DNA of 64,000 bases from Methanocorpusculum sp. (lineage in GTDB: Archaea; Halobacteriota; Methanomicrobia; Methanomicrobiales; Methanocorpusculaceae). The notes under the pieces are model-generated. The model did not search any database. It was not told where the DNA came from and worked only from the letters and a program-made list of their open reading frames with translations. The DNA lies in contig JAFQTT010000006.1 in NCBI GenBank assembly GCA_017408885.1, forward strand, positions 1 through 64,000, given 5' to 3'. Position numbers and translations under genes: made by a program. Shown one piece after another: positions 7,061 through 42,026 of this stretch; positions within the stretch are counted from its first letter, which is position 1, and each line of letters opens with the position of its first letter.

Positions 7061-8749
7061 TTACTCAGCCTGGTGTTCATTGTGTTCTTCGTATCTCTTC
7101 TTCTCAAGGTCGCGGAGCTCTACTCTTCTAACCTTACCGGAGATAGTCTTTGGAAGTTCATCAACGAACTCGATTGCACGCGGGTACTTATATGGTGCAG
7201 TCGTGGTCTTGACGTGGTTCTGAAGCTCGCGGATTAAATCATCAGAGCCAGTCCAGCCGTCTTTGAGGCAGACGAATGCCTTGACAATGACGCCGCGGAT
7301 TGGATCCGGACTTCCGACAACTGCGGACTCCTTCACGCACGGGTGAGTCATTAATGCAGATTCAACTTCTGCTGGAGAAATACGGTATCCGGAGGATTTG
7401 ATAATGTCATCATCTCTTCCAACGAACCAGTAGTATCCGTCCTCATCCATTGTTGCCTTGTCACCGGTGTAGTACCAGTCACCGACAAAGACTTTTGCGG
7501 TTGCCTCCGGATCATCGAGGTACTCCATAAACAGACCAACCGGAGACGGGTCGCGGGTGCGGATAGCGATTCTTCCTTCCTCGCCTACAGCAACAGGGTT
7601 TCCGTCGTCATCGTGGAGTTCAATCTTCCATCCCGGAGCAGGCTTTCCAATTGAACCCGGACGGTGTTCGATACACGGATAGGTTCCAATAACCATAACA
7701 GTCTCGGTCTGACCGTATGCCTCGTAAATCTTTAAGCCGGTTCCTTCTTCCCAGACACGGTTGACTTCCGGATTTAAGGTCTCGCCTGCACAAAGGCAGT
7801 GGCGGAGTTCGGAGAAGTCAAATGTACTGAGGTCGGCTAAGATTAACATTCTGTAAATGGTAGACGGAGCACAGAATGTTGTAATCTCGTACTTCTCGAT
7901 TAATGGAAGAAGTTCAGTTGCGTTGAATTTTCCGCGGTAGTCGTAGACAAAGACACAGGCTCCCTGCATCCATGGACCGTAGAACTTACCCCAGGATGAC
8001 TTACCCCATCCGGTATCTGCTACCGTAAACTGAAGATCGTTTTCGGTTAAGTCATACCAGAATCTGGCAGTTACAATATGACCAAGCGGATATGCATGGT
8101 TGTGCATAACCATCTTCGGGTTTGCAGATGTTCCCGAGGTGAAGAAAATCAGCATCGGGTCGGTTGCTTTTGTTCTATTTTTGCGAATGAGCGGGCTTAG
8201 GTGGATGGATGCTTTTGCCGGATAAATCAGTTCCTTCTGATAATCAATCCATCCGTCAGCCTCTCCATCAACAAGGAACTTGACCTTTAATGTCGGGCAC
8301 TGATCTAAGACTTCCTGTACCTTCCAGAGGTTTTCCTGGTTGGTTACAATCATCTTGAACTTGCCTTTATTAATTCTGTATTCTAAGTCGTGGGGGGTGA
8401 GAATGACTGGCGACGGACAAATTACTGCGCCAATCTTAATTGCTGCGAGGGCGAATGTCCACCACTCCGGCACGCGGGGTAGAAGAATCATTACACGGTC
8501 GCCCTTTCCGACGTTCTGTTTGAACATCATATTCGCAATCTGGTTGGACAGATTCATCATGTGGCGGAAAGTGTAGTACTTCTCTTCACCCTCCTGATTT
8601 GTCCATATCATTGCCAGTTTGTTGCGGTCCTGTTTTGCCCAGGCATCCACAACATCAAAGCCGAAGTTGTAATACTCCGGAACTGGGATGGAGAATGTGG
8701 AGCATGTCTCCTCATAGTCCATCATGTTGTGTAATGACGTTTCTGTCAT
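7061..8749 (-). CDS. AMP-forming acyl-CoA synthetase (medium-chain / aryl-acid type)
   Basis: 562 residues with the full set of ANL-superfamily motifs: FFTSGTSANPKM (phosphate loop), YEAYGQTE (A5), YYTGDKATMDEDGYYWFVGR (A7/A8) and the C-terminal PKTISGKVRR with the catalytic Lys. It activates a carboxylic acid with ATP and CoA. Sequence type resembles the methanogen medium-chain acyl-CoA synthetases rather than classic Acs. Its promoter carries a copy of the 15-bp palindrome found twice at the aro operon, 7 nt before the start codon. This makes aryl acids such as phenylacetate or indoleacetate plausible substrates for aromatic amino acid salvage (inference). Acetate or branched acids are alternatives. 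Confidence 0.85.
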   Translation of the reverse strand: MTETSLHNMMDYEETCSTFSIPVPEYYNFGFDVVDAWAKQDRNKLAMIWTNQEGEEKYYTFRHMMNLSNQIANMMFKQNVGKGDRVMILLPRVPEWWTFALAAIKIGAVICPSPVILTPHDLEYRINKGKFKMIVTNQENLWKVQEVLDQCPTLKVKFLVDGEADGWIDYQKELIYPAKASIHLSPLIRKNRTKATDPMLIFFTSGTSANPKMVMHNHAYPLGHIVTARFWYDLTENDLQFTVADTGWGKSSWGKFYGPWMQGACVFVYDYRGKFNATELLPLIEKYEITTFCAPSTIYRMLILADLSTFDFSELRHCLCAGETLNPEVNRVWEEGTGLKIYEAYGQTETVMVIGTYPCIEHRPGSIGKPAPGWKIELHDDDGNPVAVGEEGRIAIRTRDPSPVGLFMEYLDDPEATAKVFVGDWYYTGDKATMDEDGYYWFVGRDDDIIKSSGYRISPAEVESALMTHPCVKESAVVGSPDPIRGVIVKAFVCLKDGWTGSDDLIRELQNHVKTTTAPYKYPRAIEFVDELPKTISGKVRRVELRDLEKKRYEEHNEHQAE

Positions 8750-8755
8750 GAGGTA

Positions 8756-8770
8756 TGTTATATGTTAGCA
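8756..8770. promoter_or_regulatory. Putative operator shared with the aro operon
   Basis: TGTTATATGTTAGCA differs at two positions from the TGCTACATGTTAGCA found twice at the aro promoter. It begins 7 bases upstream of the acyl-CoA synthetase ATG, the same distance as the proximal copy in aro. A TATA-like TTTTATTTAC at about 8777-8786 (minus) would start transcription near this site, so a bound repressor could block initiation. Confidence 0.55.
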
Positions 8771-8901
8771 TAGTAAATAAAACTAATCGCTTTTTCACTC
8801 TTCATTATATGAGATACGCAGTTCTGCAGCGTTTTTCAGCGTGATGTTTTCTGCGCGCACGTATTTTGTTTTTTATCTCAGCATCTTGATATGGAATCAG
8901 A

Positions 8902-34548: not shown

Positions 34549-35598
34549 TTACTGATACCAGACTGCTTCGTCCTGCATCATTGAGATAAACTCATCCTTT
34601 GAAAGTGTTCTGACGCGGGAAACTGCCTCTTCGAGATTTCGAAGTGCCGCATCGTTTTCTGGATTTTCTCTCTGGATTGCATAGTACAGCTCTGCATTTT
34701 CATTTGCAACCTCAACAGACACCGCAGTCTGTTTTCTAAATGTTGTTGATGCACAGGCACGAAGGGCTTCTGAGGTAAATCCGCTTCGAACAAGAGCATC
34801 AGAGAATGCAATATTTACTGCATGTGAAAGTCCTAAGACGTATGCTGCAGCTTTGTCATGTTCTTCAACTTCCATTCTAAGAATGTCTGCAACGTTGAAG
34901 AGTACTGCTGCTTTGTCTGCCGCATCTTTCGAGCCGCAGTCACAGATAATCACGTTTCTTCCAGCGGCAGATGCTGCTGACGGTCCAAACATCGGATGTA
35001 CTGAACATACTCTTCGTCCTGCACGTCCTGCCTTGCGAAGCCTTGGGATAACCGGCTGTTTTACTGATAAGATATCAAAGATTACTGCATCATAAGAGGA
35101 TGCTTCAAGGACATCTGCAAGAACTTTATCTGCAATTGTAACAGGTGTTGAGATTACAATGATATCTGATTTTGCTCCGTCTTCGAGGCTTACAACAGGA
35201 AACTCTGCACCATTTGTATTTGGATCGCAGATAGATACATGGTGTCCGCGGGCGGCAAAGAAGTTAGAGAGCCATCTGCCCATTCCGCCATTTCCTCCAA
35301 TTATACAGATACTCTGCGGTTCCTGGAACCGTGGAAGGCGTCCCTGAACATCAACAGATTCATCAACAACAGCCCGGGCAATTCTAAATGCTGTGTTTGC
35401 TGTAACTCCTGTCTTTGCACCTGCATCAATGTATCTCTGTTCTACAATACGTTCTACAGACGGTACGACAACAGGCGCTGCGGTTTTTGCTTTTTCTTCA
35501 CCTATTACTTTCGCAATTTCATTTCTGCGGCCTACAAGACCCATGATTTTTTTGTCAATCTCTGCAAGCTCTGCTCTTAAAATATCTAATTCCGGCAT
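34549..35598 (-). CDS. tyrA: Chorismate mutase / prephenate dehydrogenase fusion
   Basis: 349 residues. Residues 1-85 form an AroQ-type chorismate mutase helix bundle (LRAELAEIDKKIMGLVGRRNEIA). The NAD-binding prephenate dehydrogenase follows from about residue 93 (CIIGGNGGMGRWLSNFF), with the substrate-site SVHPMFGPS and a helical dimer domain. It converts chorismate to 4-hydroxyphenylpyruvate. It is the last gene of the aro operon and overlaps aroC by 13 bp; GAGGAGG lies before its ATG. A U-tract follows the stop after nine bases. Confidence 0.93.
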   Translation of the reverse strand: MPELDILRAELAEIDKKIMGLVGRRNEIAKVIGEEKAKTAAPVVVPSVERIVEQRYIDAGAKTGVTANTAFRIARAVVDESVDVQGRLPRFQEPQSICIIGGNGGMGRWLSNFFAARGHHVSICDPNTNGAEFPVVSLEDGAKSDIIVISTPVTIADKVLADVLEASSYDAVIFDILSVKQPVIPRLRKAGRAGRRVCSVHPMFGPSAASAAGRNVIICDCGSKDAADKAAVLFNVADILRMEVEEHDKAAAYVLGLSHAVNIAFSDALVRSGFTSEALRACASTTFRKQTAVSVEVANENAELYYAIQRENPENDAALRNLEEAVSRVRTLSKDEFISMMQDEAVWYQ

Positions 35599-36665
35599 AC
35601 AAATCCTCCTCGAATAAGCAAATCTGCAATCACAAAAATGGTCATTGCCTCAACAACTACAGCACCGCGCGTTGCGATACATGGATCGTGTCTTCCGCGG
35701 ACAGAAAGCTCTGCATCTTTTTCATCAAAGAGGTCAACTGAGTCCTGTCTCTTCGAGATAGACGGGGTTGGCTTGAATGCAACTGAGAATTCAAGTGCCG
35801 CTCCGTTTGACATTCCTCCAAGAATGCCTCCTGCGTTGTTTGTCTTTGTTGAGACAACGCCGTCCTGCATCAGGTAGGAATCATTGTTCTCAGAACCGCG
35901 AAGTGATGCTGCCGCAAAGCCTGCACCAAACTCGATTCCTTTGACACCTGGTATTGCAAAGACAGCCTTTGCAATTTCTCCATCCAAGGTATCAAAGAAT
36001 GGTTCACCAAGTCCTGCCGGAAGACCTTTTGAAACACATCGGATAACTCCGCCAACACTGTCTCCGTCAGCCTTTGCTTTGAGAATCTCTTCACGCATGG
36101 CCTCCTCCATCTCGGAAGTCATTGCTCGAAGCGGATTTGTATGCGATATCTGCATAATTTCATCAGCAGAGTATACTGTATCGTCTTTTACAGAGCCAAT
36201 GCTTGTTGTGTATGAACCAACAGAGATTCCATATGCAGAGATGAAATCGCGAAGGACTGCTCCTGCGGAAACAAGAACTGTAGTCATTCGTCCGGAAAAC
36301 ATCCCTCCTCCTCTGATGTCGTGATTTACTCCGTACTTTGCGTATGCCGGGTAGTCTGCGTGTCCCGGGCGCGGGATTCTCCGAAGCTCATCGTAATCAG
36401 AATCATTGATGTTGGTATTCTCAATCCGAATTACAAGCGGTGCTCCTGTTGTCTTTCCCTCAAGGAGACCAACAATTTCCGGGACGTCTGCTTCAACACG
36501 AGGCGTTCCAATCCCTGGGGCTGGTTTTCTAAGAGTAAGGTCACGGGTAATTGTTTCGGGATTTACTGTAAATCCTGCGGGAATTCCATCGATTACACAT
36601 CCGATGCATGTGTCATGGCTTGCCCCGAAAAGGGTTAGACGTATTGAGTTTCCTATGGTATTCAT
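35586..36665 (-). CDS. aroC: Chorismate synthase
   Basis: 359 residues with the AroC signatures: GNSIRLTLFGASHD near the N terminus, GIPAGFTVNPE, RPGHADYPAYAKYG and SGRMTTV; C-terminal RHDPCIATRGAVVVEAM. It removes phosphate from EPSP to give chorismate with reduced flavin. It overlaps aroA by four bases and tyrA by 13. Confidence 0.96.
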   Translation of the reverse strand: MNTIGNSIRLTLFGASHDTCIGCVIDGIPAGFTVNPETITRDLTLRKPAPGIGTPRVEADVPEIVGLLEGKTTGAPLVIRIENTNINDSDYDELRRIPRPGHADYPAYAKYGVNHDIRGGGMFSGRMTTVLVSAGAVLRDFISAYGISVGSYTTSIGSVKDDTVYSADEIMQISHTNPLRAMTSEMEEAMREEILKAKADGDSVGGVIRCVSKGLPAGLGEPFFDTLDGEIAKAVFAIPGVKGIEFGAGFAAASLRGSENNDSYLMQDGVVSTKTNNAGGILGGMSNGAALEFSVAFKPTPSISKRQDSVDLFDEKDAELSVRGRHDPCIATRGAVVVEAMTIFVIADLLIRGGFVCRN

Positions 36666-37915
36666 TCTGTTGTACCTCTAAGTTTTTTCAGGTCTAAAAC
36701 AAATGCAGGGTATGATACATCTGCACATGAGATGTCGTCAATTACTGTATCACCATCTGCAATAAGACCTGCGACAGCTCCAGACATTGCGATTCTGTGG
36801 TCTCCGAGAGTTTCGATTTCCGCCCCGTGAAGCGGTATGCCTCCGCGGATTACACATCCGTCATTTGTTGCCTCAATGTCTGCCCCCATTTTTCTAAGGA
36901 AAGCAGTTGTTGTTTCTAAGCGGTTGCTTTCCTTAAATGCCAGGTGAGCTGCACCAAAGAGACGAGTTGTACCGGATGCTACACATCCAACAACAGCAAC
37001 GATAGGGAAGAGATCCGGTGCATCACTTAAATCCACATCAATTCCAGTAAGTGTACTGCACTCCACAGTTACTGCATCTCCGTTTCTGGATACCTTCGCA
37101 CCGAAACGTGATAAGATGTCGAGTATTGCTTTGTCTCCCTGCGGGTCGTTTTCATCAAGACCTGTTACTGTGACTTTACCTGTCAGAGCGCCTGCTGCCA
37201 GAATAAATGCAGCAGATGAGTAGTCTCCTGATACAAATCCGTCTGTAGGTTTGTACTGCTGTTTTCCAGGTACAAAGAATCCGTCTTCTGTTTCCTCAAC
37301 TAAGACACCGTGAGCCTTCATTGCAGAGATTGTGATGTTCACATAAGGACGTGATGCAAGCGGGGTTGTTAAGTGAATTTTAACTCCTGATGGAGATGTT
37401 GGTGCACCAAGCAGGAGTGCTGAGATGAACTGTGATGAGATGTCTCCTCTGATGAAAACCTCATTACCATTTGCAGGACCAGTTACCGAAAACGGAGCAC
37501 AGCCGTTTTCGGACTCTATTTTTGCACCAAGGTCTTTTAACGCGTCGAGAAGAGGAAGCATCGGACGTTTGCAGAGAGAAGCGTCTCCGGTAAATGATGT
37601 TTTTCCAGGAAGGTTTGCGGCGATTCCTGCAAGCATCCGAATAGACGAACCGGAGTTTTTGCAGTCGATGATATTGTCTGCTGCATGCAGATTACCGCCT
37701 GATATTGTTACTTCATCTCCTTCTACAGTGACCTCTGCACCAAGCATGCGGACAGCGTCAAGTGTTGCATTCGTGTCTTCTCCGAACAGGGGAGATTTGA
37801 TATGCGAGATGCCGGATGAAAGGGCTGAGAGCATATAGGCTCTGTGTGTGTGGCTTTTTGAAGGAGGTGCCTGTACTGTTCCGTTCAGGCTTCCTTTGTG
37901 TACACTCAGTTTCAT
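36662..37915 (-). CDS. aroA: 3-phosphoshikimate 1-carboxyvinyltransferase (EPSP synthase)
   Basis: 417 residues with PPSKSHTHRAYMLSALSSG (Lys/Ser/Arg substrate site), NSGSSIRMLAG, GDASLCKRPMLPLLDAL and SNRLETTTAFLRKMG plus GDHRIAMSGAVAGL at the C-terminal site. It joins shikimate-3-phosphate and PEP. Both starts and stops overlap neighbours by ATGA. Confidence 0.96.
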   Translation of the reverse strand: MKLSVHKGSLNGTVQAPPSKSHTHRAYMLSALSSGISHIKSPLFGEDTNATLDAVRMLGAEVTVEGDEVTISGGNLHAADNIIDCKNSGSSIRMLAGIAANLPGKTSFTGDASLCKRPMLPLLDALKDLGAKIESENGCAPFSVTGPANGNEVFIRGDISSQFISALLLGAPTSPSGVKIHLTTPLASRPYVNITISAMKAHGVLVEETEDGFFVPGKQQYKPTDGFVSGDYSSAAFILAAGALTGKVTVTGLDENDPQGDKAILDILSRFGAKVSRNGDAVTVECSTLTGIDVDLSDAPDLFPIVAVVGCVASGTTRLFGAAHLAFKESNRLETTTAFLRKMGADIEATNDGCVIRGGIPLHGAEIETLGDHRIAMSGAVAGLIADGDTVIDDISCADVSYPAFVLDLKKLRGTTE

Positions 37916-38748
37916 GGGTTTCTGATAGTTGTTATAATACAGTTTTTCTCTTCAAATATATCAAGGAATGAGGCAAGGTTTTCCTTCTTTACAAGAATCC
38001 CTGTTGCAGGTCCGGTACCTGAGATTCCTGCAGCCGAAGCATTGGCGGCTAACGCTTTATCGGCTGTAACTGTACCTATTCCAATTGATTCTCCAACACA
38101 CCGTCCGTTCTCATAGATTGCAGATAGTACATCTCCTGCAATGGCTTTGTTAAAGGCTGCCTCAACTTCTTTTGAACGTGCCTTGAATTTGTCCTTCGGG
38201 AAGGCAAGAGTTGGGATTTCTCCATCCGGAAGATGGATTACAACTGCATAATCCTCAGGCATTTTTGTGTGTTTTAGAAGCTTCATCTCTTTGTTGTCGG
38301 TAAAGACAAGACCGCCAAGCATGCAGGCTGAGGCATCGTCAAATGCTCCAGTTACTGAAACACCGCATGAAATAGATGCCTTTGCCCCAATTTTTACAAG
38401 GTAAATAGGGTCTGCTTTGATTCCTGCTGCATCAGCTGCCGCAGAGAGGATTGCATTTGCCGCAGCACTGCTGCTTTTTAGGCCTTTTGACTGAGGGATG
38501 TCTGATGTTGTTTTTACATCAGCTCCTGCAAAGTCGATGTCAGGGAATGATTTTTTGAACTCTTCAAGAAGACCTTTTGCAAATCCTGCATCAGCTTCCT
38601 GCCCGTTTACCGTAAGCGTAACTCCTGGTTCATCTAAGAGTGTGACCTCAGCAGAAGTTGTAAGCCCAATTCCAAATGCTGAGCCAAATCCGGTGGCTAT
38701 CGCATTTATGACGGTAAGAGCTCCGCCTGATACACCTCTGCCTTTCAT
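37912..38748 (-). CDS. aroK: Shikimate kinase, archaeal GHMP type
   Basis: 278 residues of the GHMP kinase fold instead of the bacterial P-loop type. The ATP site is SDIPQSKGLKSSSAAANAI, with an N-terminal GGALTVINAIATGFGSAFGI and a C-terminal GISGTGPATGIL. It phosphorylates shikimate. It lies between aroDE and aroA with four-base overlaps on both sides. Confidence 0.92.
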   Translation of the reverse strand: MKGRGVSGGALTVINAIATGFGSAFGIGLTTSAEVTLLDEPGVTLTVNGQEADAGFAKGLLEEFKKSFPDIDFAGADVKTTSDIPQSKGLKSSSAAANAILSAAADAAGIKADPIYLVKIGAKASISCGVSVTGAFDDASACMLGGLVFTDNKEMKLLKHTKMPEDYAVVIHLPDGEIPTLAFPKDKFKARSKEVEAAFNKAIAGDVLSAIYENGRCVGESIGIGTVTADKALAANASAAGISGTGPATGILVKKENLASFLDIFEEKNCIITTIRNP

Positions 38749-40097
38749 TCACCCTCCAAAAATGCCTTTTTCATTTCCAGAATGTCCGGTGACACTCCAT
38801 GCCATTTTTCGAATGCAGCAGCTCCTTGATGAATCAGCATTGTCTCTCCTGAAAATGTTACAGCTCCAAGATTTCGTGCGGCATCAAGCAGAGGTGAGTT
38901 TGGATATACCATATCCATAACAACAGTGCCTTCTTTTACGAAAGATTTGGGATCTGCCGGACAGACAGGTGATGCGTTTAGAACAATGTCGTACTCAGGC
39001 TTTAGTTCTGAGATTTTAACAGAACATCCTTCGAAGCGTTTTGCAAGAGCGTTTGCTTTCTCTTCGGTTCGGTTCGCAATCGAAAGCTTAGCTCCTCTCT
39101 CACGGAAGTAGAAGGCTGCCGCAAATGCAGCGCCGCCTGCTCCAAGGAGCAGGACATTTTTTCCTTTTGGTTCGAAGCGGTCAAGGGTTTCTGCAATACC
39201 TATCCAGTCTGTGTTGTCTCCTTCGAGATTTTTGGTGATGGTGTTTACCGCCTGAATCTCTTTTGCAGCGGGAGACACTGACTTCAGGAATGAAAGAACA
39301 GCCTGTTTGTGCGGGATTGTAACATTGATTCCTGTAATGTCATATACCTTCATCATCTGAGGGACGAGGGAGACTTCATCTTCTGGTGTTGGAATCTTTA
39401 CATAAGTTCCGCGAATGCCTGCTTTTTTAAATGCTGCATTGTGAATCGCAGGTGAGAATGTTTTGGTCAGCGGAAAACCAATAACTCCGCAGATTACTGC
39501 ATCCTGCCCTAAATCTTCGGCTTCTTTTACTGTCAGCTGTCCAGGGGCTGAGCCGGTTTCTTTTGAGACTGCACAGTAGGTAACAAGAGATCCAAGGCTT
39601 TCTGCTCTCACGCGTGTGATTTTTCCTGCATCACCCATGCCGATTAGAATAAACGGCATGTTCCAGCTTCTGATTTCTGCTGCTGCGTCTGCTATTTCGA
39701 GCAGGTCTCGAGGTCCGCAAACCATGAATGCGGCCTTTGGAACTCCTGTCTTTGCCAAATCCTGAAAGATAGATACAATCTCTTTTGCGGAAGGTGTTTT
39801 CTCGAAGTCATGGTAAGAACAGATTGTTCTTCCCGGGAATTCACCGCGAAGTACTGAGTCTGATTCAATATCCACAAAGTCTGCACCTGCATCAAGTGCC
39901 TTTTGGAATAGTTCTCTTCTGCTCTCGTCTTCCTTCGACCTAACTGTAACTATAGTAAGTTCAGGCTGAAAAACAAATGACAAATCCTGCAATGGATTTT
40001 CAAACATATCAAGCCTGAACTCGAATGCCTCGCATCCAAGAGTTCTGGCTTTTTCTATGTCTTTGGTATTTGTAATTACTGCACAGATTTTTGTCAT
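38745..40097 (-). CDS. aroDE: Fused 3-dehydroquinate dehydratase (type I) / shikimate dehydrogenase
   Basis: 450 residues. Residues 1-~205 are a type I dehydroquinase: ICSYHDFEKTP carries the catalytic His and PKAAFMVCGP the Schiff-base Lys. From ~210 the shikimate dehydrogenase follows: GFPLTKTFSPAIHNAAF, NVTIPHKQAVL (catalytic Lys), NTDWIGI and the dinucleotide-binding LLLGAGGAAFAAAF. It performs two successive steps, as the plant DHQ-SDH fusion does. There is no internal stop or start signal to suggest two genes. Confidence 0.93.
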   Translation of the reverse strand: MTKICAVITNTKDIEKARTLGCEAFEFRLDMFENPLQDLSFVFQPELTIVTVRSKEDESRRELFQKALDAGADFVDIESDSVLRGEFPGRTICSYHDFEKTPSAKEIVSIFQDLAKTGVPKAAFMVCGPRDLLEIADAAAEIRSWNMPFILIGMGDAGKITRVRAESLGSLVTYCAVSKETGSAPGQLTVKEAEDLGQDAVICGVIGFPLTKTFSPAIHNAAFKKAGIRGTYVKIPTPEDEVSLVPQMMKVYDITGINVTIPHKQAVLSFLKSVSPAAKEIQAVNTITKNLEGDNTDWIGIAETLDRFEPKGKNVLLLGAGGAAFAAAFYFRERGAKLSIANRTEEKANALAKRFEGCSVKISELKPEYDIVLNASPVCPADPKSFVKEGTVVMDMVYPNSPLLDAARNLGAVTFSGETMLIHQGAAAFEKWHGVSPDILEMKKAFLEGE

Positions 40098-41125
40098 TTT
40101 TCAAGAATGGTCTCAGCCATTGCATGACCGAAATGTCTTCCGCCTGATTCCAGGCGTACGAGAACTTTATCACCTATAGATAGGTCTGCGACAGAGACAG
40201 CACCGGATGGTGTTCCAAGGCGGATTGTTTCTGCATTCTGAACAACAACCGAGTGCTTCTTTCCATCAGCCTCTGCTTCGATTAAAATCATCGGCCTGCG
40301 TTCAATTTTCACGCGCCCTGTATCGACAGATCGAAGAGATCCGTCTGGAAGCCTTGAAAGAAGCGGGGTTCCAGCTTTTACTTCGGAGAGGTAGTGTGTT
40401 GTTCCATCAGGACATAAAATGTATGAGTGAACAGCTCCGGCATTTACGCGGAATGGTCTTGAGTTTACATATTCGCTGTCAAAACTTTCCGAGCAGATGA
40501 GGAAAAGACATGCAGAAGATGAGCCGACAAGCATGCCTTCACCCTGTTCTAAGAGAGAACTTGTGTCAATACAGACTCTGTCTCCTAATGAAAGAGGAGT
40601 GATTGCTGTGACCACTGCTTCTGTTAATTCAGTTTTCGGCATATCATCTTTTGCGGCTTTTCCAAATGCCGAGAGTTCGGAAGGAGTTGATACCACAACT
40701 GCAATTCCGTCACATCCAACTTCCATGGTCTCGCGTGCAAGTTTTGCTTCCGCTGGATTTGCAACACAGGCATAGAGTTTTGTCTTAGTTTTCTGGAAAC
40801 GTGAGATAAGATTTTCCAGTGGAATAACACGCCAGTCTGCCGGATTTACAACTGCGTACGGTGTGGTTATTTTATATGCTTTCTCCATTCCCTCCGAATC
40901 TGTGATATCTGCGATGGTCCCGATTTTTTCTCCGTCAAGGAAAAGGAATTCTCCGTCTGTGATAATTGCATTGTATCTTGCAAGACGGGTTAATGCTTCG
41001 TCTCCTTTTCTGATTACAATATCTGTGTATCCTGCTTCGAGTGCCGCTTCAGCAATCATTTTACGGTCTTCGTAAGTTTCGCCTAAGTCAGCACGGATGA
41101 GGGTTGGGGAAAGTTCTGCGGTCAT
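40094..41125 (-). CDS. 3-dehydroquinate synthase II (archaeal type)
   Basis: 343 residues of the DHQ synthase II family found in methanogens and haloarchaea (MJ1249-like). Visible are a divided N-terminal domain, DRVCIDTSSLLEQGEGMLVGSSSACLFLI in the middle and GDKVLVRLESGGRHFGH at the C terminus. It oxidises and cyclises 2-amino-3,7-dideoxy-D-threo-hept-6-ulosonate to dehydroquinate with NAD+, bypassing DAHP. It overlaps both neighbours by four bases. Confidence 0.93.
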   Translation of the reverse strand: MTAELSPTLIRADLGETYEDRKMIAEAALEAGYTDIVIRKGDEALTRLARYNAIITDGEFLFLDGEKIGTIADITDSEGMEKAYKITTPYAVVNPADWRVIPLENLISRFQKTKTKLYACVANPAEAKLARETMEVGCDGIAVVVSTPSELSAFGKAAKDDMPKTELTEAVVTAITPLSLGDRVCIDTSSLLEQGEGMLVGSSSACLFLICSESFDSEYVNSRPFRVNAGAVHSYILCPDGTTHYLSEVKAGTPLLSRLPDGSLRSVDTGRVKIERRPMILIEAEADGKKHSVVVQNAETIRLGTPSGAVSVADLSIGDKVLVRLESGGRHFGHAMAETILEK

Positions 41126-41916
41126 GCTTTGATGTGTTTGAGTGCGTCTTCTACGCTTGCGTCATTTAAGACGATATCTGAAACTGCTTTTGTGATTCCT
41201 GTAATATCTTTGTGCTGGAAGATGTTGCGTCCGATAGATGCTCCCTTTCCTCCTGCGTCAAGTGAGTCTCTGACCATGGTAAGCATGTCAAGGTCAGAAT
41301 CCATTTTTGGTCCTCCGGCGATGACAACCGGAATCTGTGCTCCGCGGGTTACTTCGCGGAAGGTGTCAATGTCTCCTGTGTAGGAGACTTTGGCAACATC
41401 AGCTCCAAGTTCTGCTGCTACACGTGCACAGGTTTTGATTGCGTCGACATCGAAGGAGTCTTTGATATTCGGACCACGCGGGTAGACCATTGCAAGAAGC
41501 GGCATTCCCCACTGTTCGCATTTTCTTGCAATCTCTCCTGCGTTTTCAATCATCTGCGGTTCGCTTTCTGCTCCGATATTGATGTGGATGGAGACAGCAT
41601 CAGCTCCCATTGCCAGGGCTTCTTCAACGGTTGTTACAATAACTTTGGAGTTGGGGTCAGTTCCAAGGCCGGTTCCGGCGGAGAGGTGGACGATTAAACC
41701 GATATCTTTTCCGGCATTTCTGTGACCGTATTTTACCATTCCCTTGTGCATGAGAACAGCGGTTGCTCCTCCTTCTGAGATTTTTCCGATGGTGTCTCTC
41801 ATATCGTATAAGCCCGGGATTGGTCCCATGGAGATGCCGTGGTCAAGCGGGACGACAACAACGCGTCCTGAGTTTCTATCGATGATTCTTTCTAGACGAA
41901 TTTGTTTTCCGAACAT
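41122..41916 (-). CDS. 2-amino-3,7-dideoxy-D-threo-hept-6-ulosonate (ADTH) synthase
   Basis: 264-residue TIM-barrel enzyme of the archaeal class I aldolase family used for aromatic synthesis. VVPLDHGISMGP carries the first Asp, PLLAMVYPRGPNI the catalytic Tyr/Lys region and GGKGASIGRNIFQH the phosphate site. It condenses 6-deoxy-5-ketofructose 1-phosphate with aspartate semialdehyde; asd lies 11 kb downstream. It is the first gene of the aro operon. The 15-bp palindrome begins 7 bases before its ATG. Confidence 0.92.
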   Translation of the reverse strand: MFGKQIRLERIIDRNSGRVVVVPLDHGISMGPIPGLYDMRDTIGKISEGGATAVLMHKGMVKYGHRNAGKDIGLIVHLSAGTGLGTDPNSKVIVTTVEEALAMGADAVSIHINIGAESEPQMIENAGEIARKCEQWGMPLLAMVYPRGPNIKDSFDVDAIKTCARVAAELGADVAKVSYTGDIDTFREVTRGAQIPVVIAGGPKMDSDLDMLTMVRDSLDAGGKGASIGRNIFQHKDITGITKAVSDIVLNDASVEDALKHIKA

Positions 41917-41922
41917 AATCTA

Positions 41923-41937
41923 TGCTACATGTTAGCA
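41923..41937. promoter_or_regulatory. aro operon operator, proximal copy
   Basis: TGCTACATGTTAGCA is a near-palindrome (TGCTA, 5-base centre, TAGCA) identical to the distal copy 89 bases away. It lies in the 5' leader, 7 bases before the ATG of the ADTH synthase gene. In RNA the arms could also form a 5-bp hairpin beside the start codon. Confidence 0.6.
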
Positions 41938-41988
41938 CGAATGGCATTTGAATCTTTTCTTCGAATCGATGCTTTCTATGGTGTGAGT

Positions 41989-41997
41989 ATATATAAT
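41989..41997 (-). promoter_or_regulatory. TATA box of the aro operon
   Basis: Minus-strand TTATATATA, flanked on both sides by the 15-bp palindrome. Initiation about 25 bases on, near 41965-41970, would give a leader of ~50 nt. The rest of 41998-42094 holds the distal palindrome and the U-tract of pmbA. Confidence 0.55.
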
Positions 41998-42011
41998 GGG
42001 TTGTAAAATCG

Positions 42012-42026
42012 TGCTACATGTTAGCA
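42012..42026. promoter_or_regulatory. aro operon operator, distal copy
   Basis: Second identical TGCTACATGTTAGCA, 15 bases upstream of the TATA box. Two sites on either side of the promoter allow looping repression or activation from the upstream site and repression from the other. Confidence 0.6.

Follow-up and report, generated by a model that had tools for sequence, protein, structure and literature searches.

Only few amino acid regulons are known in archaea, and for the aromatic amino acids the literature searched describes just two regulators, TrpY and Tar. In Methanothermobacter thermautotrophicus, TrpY, a protein of an archaeal HTH-ACT family, acts on aromatic amino acid genes through palindromic promoter sites, the TRP boxes, whose known recognition element is TGTACA. 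TrpY is the repressor of the trp operon in Methanothermobacter, and TrpY in other methanogen branches is described as unexamined (PMC6737238). In the Thermococcales, one regulator, Tar (TK0271), controls several aromatic operons via a palindrome (PMC6737238). It acts as an activator from the site TGGACA-N8-TGTCCA, which is positioned upstream of BRE/TATA. In Methanococcus maripaludis aromatic amino acids are made from aryl acids as well as de novo, according to the account of Porat et al. that is cited in PMC4162585. No operator linking the de novo and the aryl-acid routes was found in the literature searched. Our analysis of Methanocorpusculum supports a conserved and probably protein-bound operator, which would join aro biosynthesis with aryl-acid activation.

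The window analysed in our study, a stretch of 64,000 nucleotides, contains an aro operon on the minus strand. Its first gene aroA' (41122..41916, minus strand) encodes 2-amino-3,7-dideoxy-D-threo-hept-6-ulosonate (ADH) synthase, with 355.6 bits to TIGR01949 compared to a cutoff of 299. With 98% identity to the nearest named records, this enzyme places the window in Methanocorpusculum. The remaining genes (34549..41125, minus strand) encode DHQ synthase II, an AroD-AroE fusion, an archaeal shikimate kinase, AroA, AroC and a chorismate mutase-prephenate dehydrogenase (CM-TyrA). The first-pass annotation had reported two copies of a 15-bp sequence around the aro TATA box. Both copies were verified, the proximal one at 41923..41937 and the distal one at 42012..42026 (minus strand). 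They are identical to each other, reading TGCTAACATGTAGCA on the coding (minus) strand and TGCTACATGTTAGCA on the plus strand, and lie 89 bp apart. Between them, at about 41987..41999, a TATA-like box (GTATATATAATGG; CCATTATATATAC on the minus strand) was read from the sequence. The distal copy is located just upstream of BRE/TATA and the proximal copy in the predicted 5' leader, where it would occupy transcript positions of about +28 to +42. A further version (TGCTAACATATAACA, 8756..8770, minus strand), differing from the aro 15-mer in exactly two bases, precedes the gene of an AMP-forming acyl-CoA synthetase (7061..8749, minus strand) and is adjoined by a TATA-like TTTATTTA (about 8774-8783). 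As had been noticed before, in both genes the operator edge is found at position -7, counted from the A of the start codon (41923 versus 41916, and 8756 versus 8749).

Considered purely as a sequence, the dyad is not rare; its weight comes from conservation. The genome to which the window belongs contains three perfect TGCTA-N5-TAGCA sites, compared to about 1.5 expected arithmetically for a random sequence of 1.55 Mb and none for the reversed control pattern. The relaxed pattern TGNTA-N5-TANCA is uninformative on its own, since the reversed control gives 23 sites and the pattern itself 14. Two of the three perfect dyads are those at aro. The whole-genome scan that had been proposed as a check revealed a single further one on another contig (G000:C3:310593-310607), 48 bp ahead of paaK1, a gene encoding a phenylacetate-CoA ligase. 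In 25 genomes of the genus, which are related and hence not independent observations, we detected 53 perfect sites and 15 matches of the reversed pattern. ADH synthase is preceded by 25 of these sites (one more lies in G024, where the upstream region is unread), 12 are located before PaaK1 and 11 around the genes of NpdG and glutamate dehydrogenase. These three promoter regions account for 48-49 of the 53 sites and only 4 lie elsewhere. The sites around NpdG (F420:NADP reductase) and glutamate dehydrogenase occur at the loci L073, L078, L080, L087, L090, L071 and L067. These genes are a possible further member of the regulon in one Methanocorpusculum group.

The aro upstream regions first sampled from the Methanocorpusculum group (L038-L047, L049) all carry the site, at a distance of 3-6 bp from the ATG. 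The distal copy is present in five close relatives, too, and the two-copy form is confined to the ruminant clade. The spacing between both copies is 89 bp in four genomes and 78 bp in one (L042), which is one helical turn less, as expected for a protein-DNA complex and not for an RNA element. The conserved dyad and this change in spacing between species indicate that the operator is probably protein-bound, as the first-pass annotation had presumed.

The regulon includes, with paaK1, a gene of the phenylacetate-CoA ligase family whose operator is kept, with at most small changes, in all 22 genomes of the genus for which this region could be read. In most of these a second 15-mer, such as TGACA-N5-TGTCA, TGACACACCGTGTCA or TGATACACTGTATCA, follows head-to-tail directly after the first. 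PaaK1 reaches 491 bits to TIGR02155, which is under the equivalog cutoff of 646; downstream of it, the genome of the window encodes a second PaaK and then an ACT-pair protein. Corresponding to the aryl acid pathway of M. maripaludis, PaaK1 would be responsible for the CoA-activation step. Tandem 15-mers in head-to-tail orientation (TGACAACATGTGCCA TGACAACAATTAACA) and, after them, a TATA-like box were also detected ahead of the operon of a sodium:solute symporter (SSF) in the same genome. After the symporter gene we observed a gene for a hotdog thioesterase (PaaI-like, weak; L035:7286-7717), and a near-match dyad at G000:C3:293701 overlaps the start codon. Elsewhere in the order, other families have the dyad ahead of genes for a second SSF family and for Liv-type ABC transporters (L106-L123, L103, L098), often as a head-to-tail tandem, and related dyads TGNYATGC-N4-GCATRNCA precede several paaK1 genes.

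Taken in a wider form, the operator would read TGNYA-N5-TRNCA, often in two head-to-tail copies. Its conserved targets would be the de novo aro operon as well as paaK1 and sodium:solute symporters, for aryl-acid activation and uptake. Where a TATA box is visible the operators are its neighbours: they follow it closely, cover the presumed start of transcription, or flank the box as at aro in the window. Like Tar, a single archaeal regulator, here a putative one, would act on several aromatic operons through a palindrome. The operators do not correspond to the Tar site either in sequence or in position: the latter lies upstream of BRE/TATA, whereas here many sites are located downstream of the TATA box, and aryl-acid genes are included.

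The same type of site is present in the Methanomassiliicoccaceae, which belong to a different archaeal class. It was detected as TGCTAACACATAGCA before ADH synthase (L048), and one genome of this family (G204) contains exactly four perfect sites, located before the genes of ADH synthase, a CM/TyrA protein, an SSF symporter and PaaK. A second ADH synthase gene lies about 1.2 kb away from the CM/TyrA site, and the symporter is 44% identical to the SSF encoded by the genome of the window. The number of sites in G204 is unremarkable, since the reversed control yields three; what counts as evidence is where they lie. Of 30 ADH synthase loci of the Methanomassiliicoccales, most have a site of the TGCTA type immediately after the TATA box, either as TGCTAACAC-TAGCA or as TGCTAGATATTGTC with TGTCA/TGTCT as the second arm. 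A tree built from 101 sequences of ADH synthases and aldolases joins Methanocorpusculum to the Methanomassiliicoccales (99/95) and not to its own order, the nearest subgroup being the one with the TGCTAACAC-TAGCA sites (97/57, weak). This placement suggests that the aro genes were transferred laterally together with their operator.

The regulator itself had been reported to be absent from the window, and a candidate was indeed located elsewhere in the genome. This TrpY-family gene (G000:C9:171091-171579) encodes a protein with a full-length alignment to NF053754 at 177.9 bits (E 1.4e-52), slightly short of the curated cutoff of 180. In 19 of the 30 Methanomassiliicoccales loci a gene of one cluster, encoding a 166-aa protein, is oriented divergently to ADH synthase, and the operator lies in the interval between them. 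These proteins belong to the TrpY family (193.6-194.2 bits to NF053754, cutoff 180), and their gene is thereby arranged to its presumed target like trpY to trpE. Two of them gave an ACT match at 26-32 bits (cutoff 27), the Pfam HTH models being unmatched. Exactly one full-length copy of the TrpY family was present in each of the 30 genomes searched, including that of the window; weaker second matches in six genomes cover the C-terminal part only. The gene in Methanocorpusculum adjoins neither aro nor paaK1, none of the trpY-family genes searched is preceded by the dyad, and members of the family are also present in genomes whose aro operon has no operator. As in the TRP box system, an archaeal HTH-ACT family is found with aromatic amino acid genes and palindromic promoter sites. 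Here, however, the sites are TGCTA-N5-TAGCA instead of TGTACA, a box that is absent from the operators (TGCTAACATGTAGCA and its variants), the targets are aro, paaK and symporters, and the binding is a putative one. Our literature search, conducted largely outside the subscription journals, yielded nothing on this operator or on TrpY in Methanocorpusculum. We consider it fairly probable that TGCTA-N5-TAGCA is the operator of a regulator that governs the supply of aromatic amino acids to gut methanogens, this regulator most likely being the single TrpY-family protein with its presumed HTH and ACT domains.

The same operator and regulon might also be controlled by a regulator other than the TrpY or Lrp/AsnC candidates, as the whole-genome searches for regulators covered these two families only. 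The gene context in the Methanomassiliicoccales speaks for TrpY, though, so that we regard a third kind of regulator as unlikely, if still to be reckoned with. Quite unlikely, too, is a control of this regulon by the Lrp/AsnC-type protein of the genome. Lrp-type sites are 15-bp dyads with a 5-5-5 geometry, which is the geometry of the operator described here, and the genome contains a single PF01037 gene (G000:C3, L186), which appears to form an operon with the class I aminotransferase gene behind it. A haloarchaeal Lrp protein, LrpA2, goes up in the absence of aromatic amino acids (PMC4162585). However, in no lineage seen is the Lrp/AsnC gene adjacent to aro, paaK or the symporter, and no dyad was noted upstream of it.

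According to the first-pass annotation, a shared operator would make the acyl-CoA synthetase of the window the aryl-acid ligase of the regulon. That the aro genes are linked to aryl-acid activation by an operator is borne out by the paaK1 site; the part assigned to the synthetase fared less well. The enzyme is of the MbcS/ACSM type (521 bits to NF047394, below the cutoff of 850; 1.5e-174 to 3etc_A). Among solved structures it is closest to the AMP-binding protein 3etc, a Methanosarcina acyl-CoA synthetase, and to human ACSM2A, and not to PaaK, which makes it a probable branched or medium-chain acid CoA ligase. In 3 of 10 shuffled windows of 64 kb, a matrix derived from the conserved sites scored the top match at least as high as the site at 8756. 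This site is thus not significant by matrix score alone, and conservation must decide. The expected conservation in relatives was found for the aro site, which is kept across the genus and in the Methanomassiliicoccales. The site at 8756 occurs in only four close genomes. In these ruminant-clade genomes, it is retained together with the TATA box although the sequence further upstream differs among some of them; in the other Methanocorpusculum congeners searched it is absent. We therefore rejected the synthetase as the conserved aryl-acid ligase of the regulon, the conserved target being paaK1. As the site is limited to one clade and the enzyme is unlike PaaK, the link is one of aro with paaK1 (and the symporter) and not with the gene 33 kb away. 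The identical -7 position at both genes notwithstanding, we regard the original proposal as improbable; the synthetase may be a clade-specific addition to the regulon. In the ruminant clade, which also has the operator at the synthetase, a gene for an AMP-forming acyl-CoA ligase is located after the TrpY-family gene, as at L313:1-1992 (G000:C9). This gene pair was found in the four genomes of the clade only and was discarded as a generally conserved arrangement.

The proximal site, an inverted repeat, lies 6 nt ahead of the ATG in what is predicted to be the 5' leader, and could in principle form an RNA hairpin at the start codon, acting in translational control instead of as a DNA operator. 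We consider this very improbable: the stem would comprise 5 bp only, the distal copy, like most other sites, is located at the promoter or upstream of it, 15-mers are arranged in tandem arrays, and an Rfam search of the aro leader region revealed no RNA family. A chance repeat, compatible with the number of perfect dyads that base composition predicts for a genome and with the score of the site at 8756, has next to no probability, as the same genes carry the site in two archaeal classes, and is refuted for aro and paaK1 by conservation.

In the 35 genomes sampled from the rest of the order, outside Methanocorpusculum, the orthologous genes form a tandem fba-aroA' pair. None of 30 fba-aroA' upstream regions carries the operator at the position known from Methanocorpusculum; a related dyad is located about 200 bp upstream in two of them. 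Instead, about 27 of the 30 regions contain a short ORF with many Tyr, Phe and Trp codons at its end (e.g. ending in ...RYHRYFGYFWYFY before the stop). These leader ORFs (L187-L216; e.g. L204, L207, L199, L208) lie 33-180 nt upstream of fba-aroA', their ends being mostly 33-124 nt before fba. Shuffle tests performed per locus gave a combined P of 6.6e-33, a value to which relatives contribute that are not independent, and 0.99 for the reverse strand. An N-terminus resembling MPVNVFISxS is common to many of the leaders, and the start codon is accompanied by a Shine-Dalgarno-like match in 14 of 28. In several (L197, L201, L212) the ribosome-binding site of fba lies within a predicted hairpin. 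With their aromatic-rich short ORFs before a hairpin, the leaders resemble bacterial attenuators of the trp type, from which they differ in being archaeal and in that the hairpin in several cases covers the downstream ribosome-binding site. They are a candidate for an archaeal leader-peptide attenuator. An Rfam search of these leaders gave no family, and no paper on leader-peptide attenuation in archaea was found in the literature searched, which lay largely outside the subscription journals. In Methanocorpusculum no such aromatic leader peptide was seen. The presence of the operator in this genus and of leader peptides in its sister families suggests that one control system replaced another.

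With the TrpY-family protein as the most likely regulator, control might operate as follows. The protein would bind the operator, possibly as a bridged complex spanning the two copies at aro, and its ACT domain would sense an aromatic amino acid or an aryl acid as effector. Judging from the positions of the sites by the TATA box and the start site, repression could occur by blocking TFB or RNA polymerase. The symporters would carry aryl acids. As a tentative overall reading, nearly as likely as not, we suggest that a hitherto undescribed TrpY-family regulon of methanogens coordinates aromatic synthesis with aryl-acid scavenging. The occurrence of aro and operator in two classes would fit a lateral transfer between gut methanogens, and the regulon would stand in place of the candidate leader attenuator of the rest of the order. 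For the uncharacterised branch of the TrpY family the operator offers a direct binding test. If true, it would explain how a gut methanogen chooses between making aromatic amino acids and importing phenylacetate-type acids from gut bacteria.
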